Virus record (IMG/VR): IMGVR_UViG_3300031630_000039
Location: 1-21,806 of that record
From: a virus
Direction: 5' to 3' (one strand)
Length of the DNA stretch: 21,806 nt
This document shows positions 224-16,918 of the stretch, piece by piece (the first letter of the stretch is position 1; each line of letters begins with the position of its first letter). The position numbers and the translations under genes were made by a program. The notes beneath the pieces were generated by a model. The model saw nothing but the letters and a program-made list of their open reading frames with translations. It made no database searches and was not told where the DNA came from.

Positions 224-1264
224 ATGTCTAGTATAATGGATAAACTTAAGAAGAATAGCAAATCAGATTTTACGTCAATACTTGCTGATTCTAAATTTTT
301 TAATGATAAAGATATGGTACCAACAGACGTACCTATGATAAACGTAGCCTTGTCTGGCTCAATGGACGGTGGTTTAGCACCTGGACTTACAGTATTAGCT
401 GGTCCTTCTAAACATTTTAAAACTTCATTTGCATTAATTATGGCAGCTGCATACTTAAAAAAGTATGACGACGCTGTATTATTGTTTTATGATTCAGAGT
501 TTGGTTCGCCTTCATCATACTTTGAAAATTATGGTATTGATACAAAAAGAGTATTACATACACCTATTACTAATGTTGAAGAACTTAAATTTGATATAGT
601 AGGTCAACTTGAAAATTTAGATAGAAACGATAAAGTTGTAATAGTTATTGATTCAGTTGGTAACTTAGCATCTAAGAAAGAATTAGATGATGCTATAAAC
701 GAAAAATCAGTTGCCGATATGTCAAGAGCTAAAGCGCTTAAAGGTTTATTTAGAATGACTACTCCATATTTAAATATGAAAAATATACCTTTAATTGCAG
801 TAAATCATACTTATCAAGAAATTGGTTTATTTCCAAAAGCTGTAGTTTCAGGTGGTACAGGCATTTATTATAGTGCTGATAACATATGGATATTAGGCCG
901 TCAACAAGACAAAGTTGGTACTGAAATTAGAGGTTACCACTTTGTGATTAACGTGGAGAAATCAAGATATGTTAAAGAGAAGTCTAAAATACCTATTTCT
1001 GTCAGTTGGGACGGTGGTGTGCAGCATTACTCTGGCCTGCTTGACGCTGCTTTGTCTGGCAATTATGTTGCTAAGCCCAGCGTTGGTTGGTACTGTAGGG
1101 TTGATAAATCTACTGGAGAATTGGTGGATCCAAAAGTTCGAGAAAAAGATACATTAACTAAAGAGTTTTGGAAACCTATTATAGAAGATACTGATTTTAA
1201 ACAATACTTAATGAATAAGTATTCAATAGTAAATAAGTCAGCAATGATAGATGAAGAAGAATAA
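224..1264 (+). CDS. uvsX: UvsX, RecA-like recombinase
   Basis: A strand-exchange recombinase of the phage RecA/Rad51 branch. It polymerises on single-stranded DNA and drives recombination-dependent replication and repair. The 346 residues fit the family (T4 UvsX is about 390). The Walker A loop GPSKHFKT lies at residues 60-67, in the phage-type GPSKxFKT form rather than the bacterial GPESSGKT form. Walker B VVIVID lies near 138-143, and a YDSE segment follows strand 2 near 89-92. The start has a clear ribosome site (GGAAGGA) and its own promoter. The cupin gene begins directly after the stop. No uvsY or gp40 gene is recognisable next to it. Confidence 0.95.
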   Translation: MSSIMDKLKKNSKSDFTSILADSKFFNDKDMVPTDVPMINVALSGSMDGGLAPGLTVLAGPSKHFKTSFALIMAAAYLKKYDDAVLLFYDSEFGSPSSYFENYGIDTKRVLHTPITNVEELKFDIVGQLENLDRNDKVVIVIDSVGNLASKKELDDAINEKSVADMSRAKALKGLFRMTTPYLNMKNIPLIAVNHTYQEIGLFPKAVVSGGTGIYYSADNIWILGRQQDKVGTEIRGYHFVINVEKSRYVKEKSKIPISVSWDGGVQHYSGLLDAALSGNYVAKPSVGWYCRVDKSTGELVDPKVREKDTLTKEFWKPIIEDTDFKQYLMNKYSIVNKSAMIDEEE

Positions 1265-1893: not shown

Positions 1894-2062
1894 CACTACA
1901 AGATTAATCTTATTAATGGATGAAATAGCCATTGCTAAAAGTCAACTACGACCAGAAGACACTGGTCATATACACACTGCAATCAGTTACTTAGAAAGTA
2001 GAGTTGATGAAGTGTCAATGAAAATCGATAATGATTTAAAGAAAGTAGCATATGCCAACTAA
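1877..2062 (+). CDS. Hypothetical small helical protein, 61 aa
   Basis: A 61-residue, mostly helical protein of unknown function. It has two predicted helices, about residues 8-22 and 30-57, and no membrane segment or cysteine. The ATG overlaps the preceding gene by 17 bases and has a GGA-type ribosome site. Its end overlaps the helicase start by 11 bases. Its position directly before the gp41-type helicase is where a helicase-associated factor could sit, but no sequence motif supports that. Confidence 0.7.
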   Translation: MEKVSSTTRLILLMDEIAIAKSQLRPEDTGHIHTAISYLESRVDEVSMKIDNDLKKVAYAN

Positions 2063-3419
2063 TTTAGAACAAACTATATTACGAAATCTTCTTACTAATG
2101 AAGACTACATGCGCAAAGTATTGCCTTTTATAAAACCTGATTATTTTCAAGGTATTTATAAAGTCTTATTTAATGAAGCAGGTGTATTTGTATCTAAATA
2201 TAATAAGTTGCCAAATGCCGAATCATTTAAGATCGAACTTGATCAATCAGAAAAATTAAGTGAAGAGCAATACAGTATGGCAGTAGATATTGTGCCTCAA
2301 TTATTTAATAAGAATGATGTAGACGAACAATGGTTACTTGATACTACTGAAAAGTGGTGTCAAGATAGAGCAATATATAATGCTATTATGGAATCAATAT
2401 CAATTATTGATGGTAAGCATGAACAATTGACTAAAGGTGCTTTACCTGATTTATTAAGTAAAGCACTTGGTGTTGGCTTTGATCTTAAAGTTGGTCATGA
2501 CTATACAGAGAATGTAGAGGAAAGATATGATTTCTATCATACAACAGAAGACAGACTACCATTTGATTTAGAATACTTTAATACAATCACCAAAGGTGGT
2601 GTCCCACGTAAAACTCTTAATATTGCTCTTGCTGGTACTGGTGTCGGTAAATCTCTTTTTATGTGTCACGTTGCTGCCTCATCTTTAGTTCAAGGCCGTA
2701 ACGTATTATATATTACAATGGAAATGGCTGAAGAAAGAATTGCAGAAAGAATCGATGCTAACTTATTAAATTGTCCTATTGATCAACTTGATAAATTATC
2801 AAAAGATCAGTTTACTACAAAAGTAAATGACATTGCACGTAAAACAACTGGTAAGTTAATTATAAAAGAATATCCTACTGGTTCTGCGCATTCTGGTCAT
2901 TTCAGAGCATTGCTTAATGAACTTAAATTAAAAAGACAATTTGAACCAGATTTAATTTTCATAGATTATTTAAATATATGTTCAAGTGCAAGAATGAAAG
3001 CAATGGGAGGATCGATCAATTCATACACTTACATTAAAGCAATTGCTGAAGAACTTCGTGGCCTTGCAGTTGAATTTAATGTACCGGTCTTTTCTGCAAC
3101 GCAAACAACTCGTTCTGGTTTTAGTAACTCGGATGTTGGGCTTGAAGATACAAGTGAGTCTTTTGGATTACCTGCAACAGCCGATCTAATGTTTGCTTTA
3201 ATATCTACTGAAGAACTTGAAAAACAAGGTCAGTTTATGGTTAAGCAATTAAAGAATAGATATAATGATCCAACGAATCATAAAAGATTTGTGGTTGGTG
3301 TTGATCGTAGTAAAATGCGTCTATATGATGTAGAAGAAGGAGAACAAACATTAACAGATGATACACCAGTATTTGATAAAACGACAACTGGTAAACGATT
3401 TGCAGACTTTAAATTATAA
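2052..3419 (+). CDS. 41: Replicative DNA helicase, gp41/DnaB family
   Basis: The hexameric 5'-3' helicase that opens the replication fork and works with the primase. Its 455 residues match the T4 gp41 class. Residues 1 to about 150 form the N-terminal helical domain. The RecA-like core begins near 170, with Walker A AGTGVGKS at 194-201, a glutamate-bearing strand LYITMEM near 219-225, Walker B LIFIDY at 301-306 and an SATQTTRSG sensor region about 45 residues later. The start overlaps the preceding gene by 11 bases, and the stop shares TAATG with the next gene. No primase gene is recognisable in the window. Confidence 0.93.
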   Translation: MPTNLEQTILRNLLTNEDYMRKVLPFIKPDYFQGIYKVLFNEAGVFVSKYNKLPNAESFKIELDQSEKLSEEQYSMAVDIVPQLFNKNDVDEQWLLDTTEKWCQDRAIYNAIMESISIIDGKHEQLTKGALPDLLSKALGVGFDLKVGHDYTENVEERYDFYHTTEDRLPFDLEYFNTITKGGVPRKTLNIALAGTGVGKSLFMCHVAASSLVQGRNVLYITMEMAEERIAERIDANLLNCPIDQLDKLSKDQFTTKVNDIARKTTGKLIIKEYPTGSAHSGHFRALLNELKLKRQFEPDLIFIDYLNICSSARMKAMGGSINSYTYIKAIAEELRGLAVEFNVPVFSATQTTRSGFSNSDVGLEDTSESFGLPATADLMFALISTEELEKQGQFMVKQLKNRYNDPTNHKRFVVGVDRSKMRLYDVEEGEQTLTDDTPVFDKTTTGKRFADFKL

Positions 3420-11981: not shown

Positions 11982-12602
11982 ATGATGGCAACACACACAA
12001 ATAAAGACTCACCTGCTATAATGCATCTTATAAAAGAAGGTACTATAGGTGCTGAAATTGGTATTTGGATGGGTAACACTTCAACACAATTTCTTAAGAA
12101 AGGTCTTAAAAAGTTTTATATGGTTGACGCATATTCAATAGAACCGTATACAAATTCAACAGAAGTAGACTTTCAAATCTATCTTGCAAAATATGCAGCC
12201 ATTACTGGTGAAATTGCACCAGCTGGTTTTCAAAGATACTATGATAGAGTTTATGAAGAAATAAAATCTAGATTTGAAAGCATTAAAGAAACTGTAATAT
12301 GCCGTACAACATCAGACAAATGGTTTGAGCAATTTGATGGTGAAAAATTAGATTGGATTTACGTTGATGGCGATCATTCATACGAAGGTTGTTTAAAAGA
12401 TTTAAATAATGCAATGAAAATAGTTAAACCTGGTGGAAAAATATTAGGTGATGATTATGGTTGGCCAAAAAAAGATGATGACGACGAATCTATATATCAT
12501 AAGCCTGGCGTAACAAAGGCAGTAGATACATTTATAAATAATAATAACTTAACCAAGCACATATTTAGACATGGGCAAACACAATTCGAGATTCGAGTAT
12601 GA
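11982..12602 (+). CDS. Class I SAM methyltransferase (Methyltransf_24 type)
   Basis: A 206-residue Rossmann-fold methyltransferase. Motif I is GAEIGIWMGNTS (23-34), followed by an acidic strand end YMVDAYS (46-52) and IYVDGDHSYEG (126-136), the marker of the Methyltransf_24/TylF-like group that methylates sugar hydroxyls, often using a metal ion. KPGGKILGDDYG follows as the next strand. Set among glycosyltransferases and a sugar nucleotidyltransferase, sugar O-methylation is the likely job. It has two adjacent ATG codons at 11982 and 11985 and no obvious ribosome site. It ends in an ATGA overlap with the RuBisCO-like gene. Confidence 0.83.
   Translation: MMATHTNKDSPAIMHLIKEGTIGAEIGIWMGNTSTQFLKKGLKKFYMVDAYSIEPYTNSTEVDFQIYLAKYAAITGEIAPAGFQRYYDRVYEEIKSRFESIKETVICRTTSDKWFEQFDGEKLDWIYVDGDHSYEGCLKDLNNAMKIVKPGGKILGDDYGWPKKDDDDESIYHKPGVTKAVDTFINNNNLTKHIFRHGQTQFEIRV
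12533..12540 (+). promoter_or_regulatory. Possible T4-late-type promoter box before the RuBisCO-like gene
   Basis: TATAAATA, the exact T4 late -10 box, lies 58 bases upstream of the start at 12599, inside the end of the methyltransferase gene. In AT-rich coding DNA such an octamer can arise by chance, so this is weak. It is listed because of its orientation and distance. Confidence 0.3.
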
Positions 12603-13687
12603 AAAGATACACAGTTACTTACGAAGTAGACGGTCCTGATATTCCAAAAATAGCTCATGAAATTGCTATTGGTCAGAGCATAGGAAATCCTAACATTAGA
12701 TCTGAAATAGAAAATGCTACAAACGTAAAAGAATATATAGCGCAGGTTGTAAGTGTAAAGAAAAATATTGTTACTATAGAGTTTCCTCTTGGTGCATTTG
12801 ATTGGCCAAATATTAATCAATTGATGTGCATTATAATGGGCGGTCATACCGATATTTTAGGTATTGACAAATGCAGAGTAATAGATATAAAAGTTCCAAT
12901 TAAACATACACCACCTGTTTTAGGTATGAGTGGATGGAAGAAAAGATTAGGTGCAGAAAAAAGACCATTATTTGGTGCTATTGTTAAACCTAAGTCTGGT
13001 CTAAATAAAGAACAACTATTATCTTTAGTTAAAGACATGATATACGGTGGCGCTGACTTTATTAAAGAAGATGAGATTATGGCAAATAATTCTTATTTAC
13101 CTTTGGAAACAAGAGTTGAAGCCATTGAGCACTTAAAACAAATATCTGGTTGGAAAGGCTTTTATGCATATTGCATTAATGCAGATCCTTTAGAATTAGT
13201 AGATAACTGTGCTGCAGTAAAGATGGGTAGTAACAGTGAAGCTTCGGTCGGTGGAGTACACATTAATTTTTGGTCAGGTTTAGGTGCTTATACAACTGCA
13301 AGAAAATACAATTTAGCAACACACTATCAAAGATCAGGTATACGTATTTTAACTGATCCAGGTAATAGGTATTCGTTATCTTGGCCAGTTCTAGTAAAAC
13401 TTGGCTGCATGGCAGGCATTGATAGTATGCATGTTGGTATGCTAGGCGGATATTATCCGGAAGGCGAAAGTGAAACAGAAACACTTGAAGCAATTAAGAT
13501 CTGTGCTAAGTATAATGTTATACCGTCATTAAGTTGTGGTATGAATCCTGTACTTGCAAGAGAAATTAAAGAACGAATTGGAAATAATTGGATGGGATCA
13601 GTCGGTGGCTGGTTACATACAGGTGACGGTACTAAAGGTAACACTTTGTACCATAAAGTGAAAGAAATGAGTGAGGCGATGTTATAA
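12599..13687 (+). CDS. RuBisCO-like protein (form IV-type large-subunit homologue)
   Basis: A 362-residue member of the RuBisCO large-subunit superfamily. The N-terminal domain ends with EFPLGAFDWPNINQLMCII and DIKVP (near 61-100), matching the family. The barrel begins with RPLFGAIVKPKSGL, where K130 and K132 equal K175 and K177 of the spinach enzyme. GGADFIKEDE keeps the carbamylated lysine (K156) and the metal ligands D158 and E159. MHVG supplies H278 (H327). PSLSCG keeps S312 and G314 (S379/G381), and SVGGW keeps the phosphate-binding GG. Loop 6 lysine K334 is replaced by Y285, and the SxGT-W and N123 positions are changed. Carboxylase activity is therefore unlikely, and an enolase, isomerase or decarboxylase of a sugar-type substrate is more likely. 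It is shorter than most relatives (about 400-480). ATGA and TAATG overlaps tie it to a methyltransferase and a sugar nucleotidyltransferase. Confidence 0.9.
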   Translation: MKRYTVTYEVDGPDIPKIAHEIAIGQSIGNPNIRSEIENATNVKEYIAQVVSVKKNIVTIEFPLGAFDWPNINQLMCIIMGGHTDILGIDKCRVIDIKVPIKHTPPVLGMSGWKKRLGAEKRPLFGAIVKPKSGLNKEQLLSLVKDMIYGGADFIKEDEIMANNSYLPLETRVEAIEHLKQISGWKGFYAYCINADPLELVDNCAAVKMGSNSEASVGGVHINFWSGLGAYTTARKYNLATHYQRSGIRILTDPGNRYSLSWPVLVKLGCMAGIDSMHVGMLGGYYPEGESETETLEAIKICAKYNVIPSLSCGMNPVLAREIKERIGNNWMGSVGGWLHTGDGTKGNTLYHKVKEMSEAML

Positions 13688-14427
13688 TGAAAGTGATACT
13701 ACCTATGGCTGGAAACGGCCAAAGATTTTTTGATGATGGATATGATTTACCAAAACCTTTAATTGATATTAAAGGAAAGCCAATGTTTAAGCGTGTAGTG
13801 GATAATCTACATCTTAATGGAAACGTACAATTAACTTGCATTGTAAGACAAGATCATGTTGATAATTACGATATTGATAAAAGAATAAAAGAACATTATA
13901 AAGATGCTAATATATTAGTGTCTCCAGGCCCCACAGAAGGAGCTGCATCTACTGTAAGATTAGCAACTTCTATGTTTGGTGGCGAAGCTATGATAGTTGC
14001 AAACTGTGATCAACTTATGGATTGGGATTCTAAAAAGTTTTATAAAATGATTGAACTCAGTTTATATCCTGGTGGACTCATACCAGTTTTTATAACAGAT
14101 CCTAGTCATATTAATCCAATTCACAGTTATTGTGATGTTGATGCTTATGATAATTTACTTCAACTTAGAGAAAAAGAAATAATTAGTAATCTTGCTACAG
14201 TTGGTGTTTATTATTTTGGTGATGAAGTTAAATGGATTAAAGCGCATGAAAAACAAATGGATGCCAATGATAGAACTAATGATGAATTTTACTTAGCGCC
14301 TACATATAACTATTTAGAAGAAAATGTTGGAGTGTTTCGTGTAAAGAAAATGATAGGTATGGGAACTCCAGAAGAATTAAACAATTTAAAAAATAGTGAA
14401 TATTGGGATAAACTTGAGGATTTATAA
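13687..14427 (+). CDS. Sugar nucleotidyltransferase (RmlA/GlmU-like)
   Basis: Joins a sugar phosphate to an NTP to make an activated sugar. The N-terminus carries the signature LPMAGNGQRF (5-14), the G-x-G-x-R-F nucleotide loop, then LPKPLIDIKGKPM (21-33) with the conserved K-P. AMIVANCDQLM (near residue 100) is the metal-binding strand end. It has 246 residues and no C-terminal acyltransferase repeats, so it is a single-domain pyrophosphorylase. It is translationally coupled to the RuBisCO-like gene upstream and to a glycosyltransferase-like gene downstream by TAATG overlaps. This suggests that it activates a sugar used by the island, possibly one made with the RuBisCO-like enzyme. Confidence 0.87.
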   Translation: MKVILPMAGNGQRFFDDGYDLPKPLIDIKGKPMFKRVVDNLHLNGNVQLTCIVRQDHVDNYDIDKRIKEHYKDANILVSPGPTEGAASTVRLATSMFGGEAMIVANCDQLMDWDSKKFYKMIELSLYPGGLIPVFITDPSHINPIHSYCDVDAYDNLLQLREKEIISNLATVGVYYFGDEVKWIKAHEKQMDANDRTNDEFYLAPTYNYLEENVGVFRVKKMIGMGTPEELNNLKNSEYWDKLEDL

Positions 14428-15170
14428 TGAAAATAGCAGTTTGCATTTCTGGCATTGCCAGAGGTAACGTAAAGCATAATATTGGTAGAATAAAAGAAGC
14501 CTTTGGCGATAAAGCAGATATATTTACTGCGTCGTGGAAAGAACATAAAAATGATTACAGCGAACAATACGGCGCTGAATATTATGACGAGCCTACCCTA
14601 CATTACAATTCTTGGAAAGATTGTGTAACTGATAATCCTCATCCAAAATATAAATTATATAAGCAAGCATTCATAAACCAAGATGGTCCTGCATTTTTTT
14701 TAGCTCAACGAAAAAAATTAATGAATGCAACTAAACAACTTATTGCACACGCCTATCAATTACCTAACATACCTCAAGAATATGATATGATTATAAGATT
14801 AAGATGGGATAGTGTAGTGTCTACAAAATTAGATTTTACTAAATACCTAGAACAATCGTATGATGGCAATATGGCTGTAGGATTTGCTATTCGTGGTGGT
14901 AGACATGCAAAGCTTGATATATTTAAAGATATTGATCATGTTTATTGTGATGATAATACTGATCAAATGTGGAGTAGAGATTGGTGTTATTGGCTTAATG
15001 ACAATATGATATTTCATCCTAGGAAACTATATGATTGCGAAAAAGTTTTACAATATCATGAAGAAAAGAAACTGTGGCCTGCTGAATATGGTTGGTATCA
15101 AATGTTAAGTAATGCAGACGACCATCATGGAGTATATGGTGGTGCTGTCATAGAAAAATTCTGGCGATAA
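14427..15170 (+). CDS. Putative glycosyltransferase-like protein
   Basis: A 247-residue protein that opens with KIAVCISGIARGN and DIFTASW (2-14, 31-37), a start shared by a group of viral and bacterial proteins of glycosyltransferase type. YDMIIRLRWDS (118-128), with its R-x-R-W-D pattern, is the strand and acidic residue typical of that group. DWCYWLNDNMIFHP in the C-terminal third is a likely acceptor-site segment. No standard DxD is present, so the activity is inferred from pattern and neighbourhood. It is coupled to the nucleotidyltransferase by a TAATG overlap and followed after one base by a reduced methyltransferase-like gene. Confidence 0.65.
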   Translation: MKIAVCISGIARGNVKHNIGRIKEAFGDKADIFTASWKEHKNDYSEQYGAEYYDEPTLHYNSWKDCVTDNPHPKYKLYKQAFINQDGPAFFLAQRKKLMNATKQLIAHAYQLPNIPQEYDMIIRLRWDSVVSTKLDFTKYLEQSYDGNMAVGFAIRGGRHAKLDIFKDIDHVYCDDNTDQMWSRDWCYWLNDNMIFHPRKLYDCEKVLQYHEEKKLWPAEYGWYQMLSNADDHHGVYGGAVIEKFWR

Positions 15171-15171
15171 C

Positions 15172-15585
15172 ATGCTCTCTACGTTAATGCAAAGGTATAA
15201 GTCAAACCGACAAAAGCATGCTTTGTTCTATGAAAAAGAATTATTTGAACATCGCAATAAACCTTTAAACATATTACAAATTGGAATTGGTACGAGTATA
15301 TCAGTCTGGCACAAATATTTGTCTTATTCGAATATCTATTGTATCGACGAATTCAACAATTTACAACCTAATAAATACAAATACCTGGAAGAGAAAAGAA
15401 TATTCTGGTCAAGGTGCGATATAAACGATCAAAAAAGTATTAATGATGTTATGATAAATACATGGAATAAACCTAGATTTAATTTTATAATAGACAACGA
15501 AACATCTAGATATCAATATTTAAGAAGATATTGTATTGGAAAATACTATATCGAAACCAGTGACGGCGTAGAGGTAAAGAAATGA
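15172..15585 (+). CDS. Shortened methyltransferase-like protein, paralogue of the one at 19572
   Basis: A 137-residue protein whose parts line up with the methyltransferase at 19572: M-L-S/Q-x-L start, NILQIGIGTSISVWHKYL (33-50) against NILEVGILHGESIRAWLEY, IYCID (55-59) against IYAID, and FNFIIDNETS (103-112) against FDFIIDDGQH. The histidine of the second motif is replaced, and the protein ends soon after, lacking roughly 60 C-terminal residues. It is either a decayed methyltransferase kept as a binding protein or a reduced functional form. It is open throughout with normal spacing and an ATGA overlap with the next gene, which argues against a plain pseudogene. Confidence 0.68.
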   Translation: MLSTLMQRYKSNRQKHALFYEKELFEHRNKPLNILQIGIGTSISVWHKYLSYSNIYCIDEFNNLQPNKYKYLEEKRIFWSRCDINDQKSINDVMINTWNKPRFNFIIDNETSRYQYLRRYCIGKYYIETSDGVEVKK

Positions 15586-16280
15586 AAGCATTTGCAATAG
15601 TTGTACCAGATAATAAAATATCAATGTCTGGATTTAATGAACTTAAAGAAAGCTATGAGAAATACGGTTATGAAGACGGTATTGAAATGCATGAAGCAAT
15701 TGAACTTAATAAAGTAGAAGGATACTGTGGTGGTAATGGATTAGTTTGGAATTATCCATGGGAAGGCCAACACTTAGATATGAAAAGTGGTATGTTGAAG
15801 TCTGCATATCAAACTACAGATAAAAGAAAGCGTATGTCATGTTTTTTAAGTCATTGGTATTTGTGGCGAAAATGCCAAAATCTTAATGAAACTATATTAA
15901 TTCTTGAACACGATTCAAGGTTAATAAAAAGATTACCAGCAGACAGCACATTTGAGAAATCTAATTTCGATATCATAGGAATAAACGATCCATCGATGGC
16001 TACTAGAAAATCTAAAATATATCATGATAAAATCTTAGAAAAAATTGATTTCTTTCAACAAGTTCCAAGGATTGACGAATACAATATTCCACAAGGATTA
16101 GCTGGCAATTCGGCATATGTAATAAAACCAGCTGGCGCAGAACAAATGGTTAATTTGACACAAGAATACGGTATGTGGCCAAACGACGCGTTAATGTGTT
16201 ATCAATTAGTTCCTAAGCTTGGAGTAACACGTAATTTCTACACAAGAATACAAGGATTGAGGTCAACAACAACACTATGA
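15582..16280 (+). CDS. Glycosyltransferase family 25 protein, copy 1
   Basis: A 232-residue GT25-type sugar transferase, the family of LPS galactosyltransferases. The family landmarks are SCFLSHWYLWRKC (near 86-98), ILILEHDSRL (near 106-115), whose E-H-D is the family's ExD-type metal site, and GLAGNSAYVIKPAGAEQM (near 173-190). It is followed with an ATGA overlap by a second GT25 gene with the same landmarks, so the pair arose by duplication or joint acquisition. The acceptor is unknown, but LPS-like or virion glycans are the usual targets. Confidence 0.85.
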   Translation: MKAFAIVVPDNKISMSGFNELKESYEKYGYEDGIEMHEAIELNKVEGYCGGNGLVWNYPWEGQHLDMKSGMLKSAYQTTDKRKRMSCFLSHWYLWRKCQNLNETILILEHDSRLIKRLPADSTFEKSNFDIIGINDPSMATRKSKIYHDKILEKIDFFQQVPRIDEYNIPQGLAGNSAYVIKPAGAEQMVNLTQEYGMWPNDALMCYQLVPKLGVTRNFYTRIQGLRSTTTL

Positions 16281-16918
16281 AAATGTATGTAATAACAATA
16301 ATGGAAAATGAAAGATCAGTGCAAGTTGCTGATAGATGTGTAAAGAGTGGTTTAGTATTTGGTTATAAAATAAACAAACATAAAGCATATACTCCACAAA
16401 ACTGTGATGTATATGAAGAGTTAAAGAAACTTAAATATCCTTCTGCAGCATTTAATGAAATATATAGTAGACCAGAAAATTGTATAGCAGGTTTTTTAAG
16501 TCATCATAGTTTATGGAAAAAGTGTGTCAGATCTAAAGAGCCTATAGTTATATTTGAACATGACGCAGTGCTAGTAGGAGACATTCCACAAATGATGATG
16601 TTTGATATCCTAAACTTAGGTAAACCATCATACGGTAAATTTAATACACCGTCATTCATAGGTTATGGTTCATTAGTATCAAAACCATACTTTCCAGGTG
16701 CACACGCATATAGATTAACACCAAAAGGCGCACAACAACTAATCGATGAATGTGCGTTTTCTGCAGGTCCAACAGACATATACATTCATTCAAGTAAGTT
16801 TACACTAGGTGAATACTATCCATGGCCAGCAGAAGCCAGAGACAGTTTTACTACAATACAACAAAAACAAGGATGCTACGCAAAACATAATTATGGCGAA
16901 ACCTATGAAATTATATAA
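16277..16918 (+). CDS. Glycosyltransferase family 25 protein, copy 2
   Basis: A 213-residue GT25-type protein. The landmarks are AGFLSHHSLWKKC (near 71-83), IVIFEHDAVLV (near 89-99) and PGAHAYRLTPKGAQQLI (near 141-157). In all three places it lines up with the preceding protein, but overall they differ strongly, so the pair is old. GPTDIYIH is the expected D-x-x-I closing motif. The next gene starts within its last 14 to 26 bases. Confidence 0.85.
   Translation: MKMYVITIMENERSVQVADRCVKSGLVFGYKINKHKAYTPQNCDVYEELKKLKYPSAAFNEIYSRPENCIAGFLSHHSLWKKCVRSKEPIVIFEHDAVLVGDIPQMMMFDILNLGKPSYGKFNTPSFIGYGSLVSKPYFPGAHAYRLTPKGAQQLIDECAFSAGPTDIYIHSSKFTLGEYYPWPAEARDSFTTIQQKQGCYAKHNYGETYEII

Follow-up and report, generated by a model that had tools for sequence, protein, structure and literature searches.

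The window analyzed here, which is the whole 21.8-kb stretch of a virus record from a T4-like marine phage, encodes a RuBisCO-like protein (RLP) of 362 aa at 12599..13687 on the plus strand. The RLP belongs to a real and conserved clade that is predicted from sequence to be non-carboxylating and tied to nucleotide-sugar synthesis. Because the carbon-fixing parts have been lost and a sugar-activating gene lies alongside, the RLP probably helps to build an unusual surface sugar.

The UvsX-like recombinase (224..1264, +; phrog_97, 5e-90) identified the contig as a T4-like phage, and the DnaB-like replicative helicase (2052..3419, +; phrog_19, 3.5e-130) was 62-68% identical to marine Kyanoviridae. 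The other phage genes of the window were ThyX, exonucleases, and an endolysin. A small cupin directly after uvsX (1265-1594) was unlike the RLP-linked cupin described below.

The RLP open reading frame is as the preliminary description gave it, with an ATGA overlap at its 5' end (12599) and a TAATG overlap at its 3' end (13687), and it is translationally coupled to a sugar nucleotidyltransferase (NTase). Its membership of the RuBisCO superfamily, also claimed there, was borne out by the profile search, since the Pfam domains RuBisCO_large (PF00016, 9.3e-23) and RuBisCO_large_N (PF02788, 2.2e-5) both exceeded their gathering scores. The PDB sequence matches were RuBisCO or RLP without exception (best 2e-24). 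The AlphaFold model, built from 62 relatives, reached a pLDDT of 93.8 and a pTM of 0.92, and a structure search returned RuBisCOs as the top Foldseek matches (TM 0.80-0.84, E ~1e-24). Pfam, AlphaFold, and Foldseek thus agreed on the superfamily fold, with its N-terminal and TIM-barrel catalytic domains. The dN/dS value was 0.05-0.12 against relatives 76-91% identical, which is strong purifying selection, and the gene is therefore maintained. Together with the hundreds of homologues, this value shows that the RLP is no chance open reading frame. The superfamily match, the metal-site residues, and the sugar-gene neighbours on which the preliminary description depended are all present.

Residue invariance was judged on 62 sampled clade members with the active-site list of PMC5786004. 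K130-P-K132 (12986..12994, +), the equivalent of RuBisCO K175 and K177, was invariant, as was K156-E-D158-E159 (13064..13075, +), the equivalent of the carbamylated K201 and the D203/E204 Mg site; K156 would accordingly be carbamylated, judging from its alignment. The phosphate loops were also kept: S312-C313-G314 (13532..13540, +; S379-G380-G381 in RuBisCO) was invariant, and in G336-G337 (13604..13609, +; G403-G404) the first glycine was invariant and the second was present in at least 90% of the members. Five carboxylase residues were swapped in all 62 members, namely E60 to G25, T65 to N30, N123 to G82, H294 to Q244, and K334 to Y285. The N-terminal motif G-Q-S-x-G-N-P (G25-P31; 12671..12691, +) stands in place of RuBisCO E60...T65-W66, and its G25, Q26, S27, G29, N30, and P31 columns were invariant (62/62). 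Q244 (13328..13330, +), where forms I, II, and III have His, was Gln in every member, a replacement absent from the preliminary list of markers. The change of the loop-6 lysine to Y285 (13451..13453, +) had been noticed correctly, and Tyr was found in all members. The equivalents of R295 (R245) and H327 (H278) varied. Among the RuBisCO markers named earlier, K156, D158, E159, S-x-G, and G-G were thus kept, whereas H278 was not invariant (His or Gln). This pattern means strict constraint on the enolising core and on one phosphate site, loss of the CO2-handling part, and a loose second phosphate site. The pattern would fit enolisation of a substrate of which one phosphate is firmly bound, and the earlier view that CO2 fixation is unlikely agrees with the replacement of five carboxylase residues in every member sampled.

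Maximum-likelihood trees were built with forms I, II, and III, OiaX-type, MtnW-type, and further form-IV proteins, and one IV-Photo protein, and were rooted at the midpoint only. The RLP clade was separate with 100/100 support, grouping with none of forms I, II, and III and lying outside every form-IV type sampled. The sole IV-Photo representative, which sits in a photosynthesis gene cluster, fell outside the clade on a long branch. An archaeal RuBisCO-like protein (L301) was set aside as a different, degenerate RLP. The RLP fits the broad definition of form IV, a RuBisCO fold with substituted carboxylase residues, and we place the clade as a form-IV-like, non-carboxylating member of the superfamily whose loss of carboxylation is predicted from its residues. 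The equivalog scores were also low, with 110.6 bits against a cut-off of 497 for type III, 100.9 against 700 for OiaX (NF042437, at least 700 bits), and 54.1 against 514 for MtnW, the DK-MTP-1P enolase (TIGR03332, at least 513.6 bits). OiaX and MtnW identities were both rejected on score and tree. In the midpoint-rooted tree, members from Elusimicrobia, Azospirillum, Legionella, and DPANN branched outside most viral ones, which suggests, under that root, a cellular origin with a viral radiation.

The conserved partner of the RLP is the sugar or polyol-phosphate NTase at 13687..14427 (+; PF00483, 6.7e-9; phrog_3980, 1e-42). Its AlphaFold model (pLDDT 96.3) matched 4evw first in Foldseek, followed by GalU, RmlA, and HddC types. 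Of 100 distinct loci, 82 had the NTase on the strand of the RLP and no more than three genes away, compared with a mean of 19.8 and a maximum of 30 for random genes of the same loci (500 draws). Start-stop overlaps between the two genes were typical, and the dominant layouts were RLP-NTase, as in the window, and NTase-cupin-RLP in the distant type. Several of the remaining loci (18%) end near the RLP gene. The pair was also retained in chromosomes of Pelagibacter, Legionella, Elusimicrobia, and Nanoarchaeia, so the link to a sugar NTase that had been proposed is real and conserved across phages, bacteria, and archaea. The proposed unit of methyltransferase, RLP, and NTase held in its second half. 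The methyltransferase (Methyltransf_24; 11982..12602, +; PF13578, 5e-14) overlaps the RLP by ATGA, and it occurred in only 23 of 100 loci, all close relatives; it was rejected as a core partner, and the conserved unit is therefore RLP plus NTase, with cupin and GDPD as further members. In four Pelagibacter loci (L088, L089, L091, and L092), two different NTases flank the RLP, and a protein of 311-344 aa that matches the phage ThyX family precedes the RLP island.

A small cupin of 108 aa (RGWFIGNFEPS...; L149:9645-9968, L082:10055-10384) recurred in 42 of 100 loci at a distance of at most three genes from the RLP, and directly upstream of it in 38; it had no significant Pfam model. A mini glycerophosphodiesterase-like (GDPD) family of 140-150 aa with the motifs HRG, ExD, GHD, and ...GICSDY (L071:9180-9620, L092:7744-8205, L058:8201-8617) lay within five genes in about 45% of loci; it had no Pfam match, and a full GDPD (PF03009, 1.2e-21) takes its place in the Nanoarchaeia locus. 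Neither a cupin nor a GDPD adjoins the RLP of the window. Downstream of the NTase, the window encodes a protein beginning MKIAVCISG... (14427..15170, +), whose family was present in 51 of 100 loci and is probably glycan-related; it was grouped with DUF7796-matching proteins, since a relative matches DUF7796. This family, often in several copies per locus near about half of the RLP genes, is possibly a glycosyltransferase. Two copies of glycosyltransferase family 25 follow at 15582..16280 (+; PF01755, 1.7e-10) and 16277..16918 (+; PF01755, 1.2e-10).

Partner replacement was observed around the NTase. In all four RLP-bearing Legionella genomes, a divergent licD (PF04991, 6e-44) adjoins the RLP-NTase pair, and the three genes are grouped amid unrelated genes; LicD was near none of the phage RLP genes in the loci checked. 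Four Legionella genomes without RLP (L282-L285) have a HAD-NTase fusion beside their licD orthologue (66-68% identical). The same fusion architecture occurs in cyanophages and in six RLP loci. RLP and HAD therefore look like alternative feeders of the NTase, and HAD-NTase beside licD looks like a natural replacement of the licD-RLP-NTase arrangement. In cyanophage S-SKS1 (HQ633071; L289:5001-6428), the NTase is fused to the DHBP synthase RibB (PF00926, 5e-65), and the fusion was kept in about 10 IMG/VR contigs (L290-L299). The RibB-fused NTase nests within the RLP-linked NTase tree beside those of L071 and L073 (SH-aLRT 99). It is followed by a 320-aa unknown protein, a small HAD phosphatase, and a transaldolase, and the same three genes follow RibB in L071, where RLP, cupin, GDPD-like, RibB, and transaldolase genes lie within one cluster. 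RibB acts on ribulose 5-phosphate, and the NTase-RibB cluster looks like a pathway from this compound to an activated sugar. Judging from these associations, each partner would make the phosphate that the NTase activates, and for RibB and RLP the starting compound would be a pentulose phosphate.

We lean towards the reading that the RLP clade, which would not fix CO2, is an enolising isomerase or epimerase making a sugar phosphate for activation by the NTase and delivery to a surface glycan. The enolisation machinery, comprising a putatively carbamylated lysine with its Mg site and K175/K177, would be retained together with the loops for one phosphate, and the groups that bind and attack CO2 would be gone. 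The enzyme may then isomerise or epimerise a ketose phosphate, probably a pentulose phosphate, the NTase would activate the resulting phosphorylated compound, and its attachment to the surface glycan would fall to glycosyltransferases in phages and to a LicD-type phosphotransferase in Legionella. The substrate is a guess from two analogies, namely the RibB fusion and the Rhodospirillum rubrum RLP. The latter is a 5-methylthioribulose-1-phosphate isomerase whose product passes to a cupin enzyme (PMC4958253), and by analogy it could be a precedent for an RLP with a small cupin nearby. An evenly balanced proposal goes further: a branch of RuBisCO may have turned biosynthetic for nucleotide-activated surface sugars and become the main RuBisCO-superfamily protein of the virosphere, making a ketose or branched sugar by a new route, with RLP, RibB, and HAD as interchangeable feeders of one NTase family.

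A rather unlikely alternative is that the RLP is a biosynthetic decarboxylase, transcarboxylase, or C-C cleaving enzyme of the OiaX kind, which would shorten or branch a sugar acid or keto-sugar phosphate before activation. Although the OiaX profile was the second-best NCBIfam match of the RLP (7e-29), the clade falls far under the OiaX cut-off. K175 and the metal site are common to the two groups, whereas H294, R295, and K334 are kept by OiaX-type proteins and are missing or variable in the RLP clade. RibB, the partner of the sister NTase, is itself a C-C cleaving enzyme; however, the OiaX-type relatives adjoin four-carbon acid sugar kinases or aldo/keto reductases, not NTases.

Scans of IMG/VR matched 165 stretches with the single RLP protein and 347 with an alignment, and these 347 contigs encode a clade member. 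The same type of scan with form I, form III, OiaX-type, and mixed form I/II/III alignments gave no confirmed relative at the sensitivity of motif scans followed by tblastn, and the RLP clade was the only RuBisCO-type protein recovered. No RLP homologue was found among 50,697 INPHARED records of phage isolates, no PHROG family matched the RLP, and no RuBisCO fold was found in BFVD. Among 84,980 GTDB species genomes, 23 loci carried a clade member; one of these (L082) lies in a MAG contig whose genes follow the same phage-type order, and probably belongs to a phage. The rare cellular carriers were Pelagibacteraceae single cells, Legionella, Azospirillum, Elusimicrobia, Patescibacteria, and DPANN archaea, and the gene was sporadic, occurring in 3 of 297 Pelagibacterales (none of them new) and 4 of 22 Legionella.

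Such sporadic occurrence in Pelagibacterales would fit a reading in which the pairing with sugar genes merely reflects a shared hypervariable accessory island, with the RLP serving an unrelated path such as methylthioadenosine salvage, in which IV-Photo and MtnW RLPs act (PMC4958253, PMC6302742). This explanation is improbable: the NTase accompanies the RLP far more often than other genes of the same islands do (82 versus 20), the Legionella pair lies outside any large glycan island, the pairing spans bacteria, archaea, and phages, and the MtnW score (54 versus 514) argues against the salvage path.

Viral rbcL has been reported as a carbon-fixation gene in the Great Salt Lake, landfills, contaminated soils, and an estuary (PMC8506154, PMC12607003, PMC12615777, PMC13390420). 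The landfill one clusters with 'RbcL-like' proteins, and one study claimed carboxylase activity with a co-expressed small subunit (PMC12615777). Such activity would not be expected for the RLP clade. Despite the kept RuBisCO fold, carbamate/metal site, and K175/K177, and the usage of several virome papers, one with its activity claim, it is very improbable that the RLP is a genuine or partially active RuBisCO supplying carbon fixation to infected cells. This reading was rejected on residues and gene context: every member sampled has E60, T65, N123, H294, and K334 replaced, the neighbours are glycan genes, inspection of the neighbourhoods recognised neither a phosphoribulokinase nor another Calvin gene, and Legionella, Pelagibacter, and DPANN are not known to be autotrophs using the Calvin cycle.

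RLP-clade genes could easily be mistaken for viral carbon-fixation genes, and reports of viral "rbcL" merit a recheck. The growing viral-RuBisCO literature would be corrected in this respect, as the clade found in IMG/VR is without the CO2-handling residues. To our knowledge, the known functions of RLPs are in breakdown or salvage pathways. The described examples are methionine salvage and apiose breakdown (PMC4958253, PMC6302742), and our literature search on phage-, capsule-, or LicD-linked RLPs turned up no work naming this system. A biosynthetic, glycan-building RLP, if true, would give one of the best-known enzyme folds a new role, and it points to a so far uncharted sugar or polyol phosphate common to phages, Pelagibacter, Legionella, and DPANN archaea.

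Compared with known systems, the RLP is nearest by sequence and structure search to archaeal form III RuBisCO (Methanococcoides burtonii, 9dyr; Thermococcus, 3a12), but it is shorter, has all five carboxylase residues replaced, and stays far below the type III cut-off. OiaX-type RLPs (3-oxo-isoapionate-4-phosphate decarboxylase) likewise keep K175 and the K201/D203/E204 site and act on a sugar-derived phosphate, whereas they belong to catabolic operons and those sampled keep H294 and K334. The viral rbcL auxiliary metabolic genes are also RuBisCO-superfamily genes on viral contigs, and are read there as carbon fixation. The Global Ocean Sampling survey of 2007 described marine homologues of RuBisCO that fall into none of the known forms and vary at N123, K177, H327, and other residues (PMC1821046); by that description, which in the part consulted makes no link to phages or gene context, they could be an earlier sighting of the same clade. 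The R. rubrum isomerase, a form IV protein, shares a RuBisCO fold, a lack of carboxylase activity as predicted here, enolisation chemistry as proposed here, and a cupin partner gene. It differs in that its partner is a cupin methylsulfurylase of methionine salvage, where the RLP has a sugar NTase, and the clade is separate from the single IV-Photo representative in the trees. The signature of the RLP is G-Q-S-x-G-N-P, Q244, Y285, and S-C-G.
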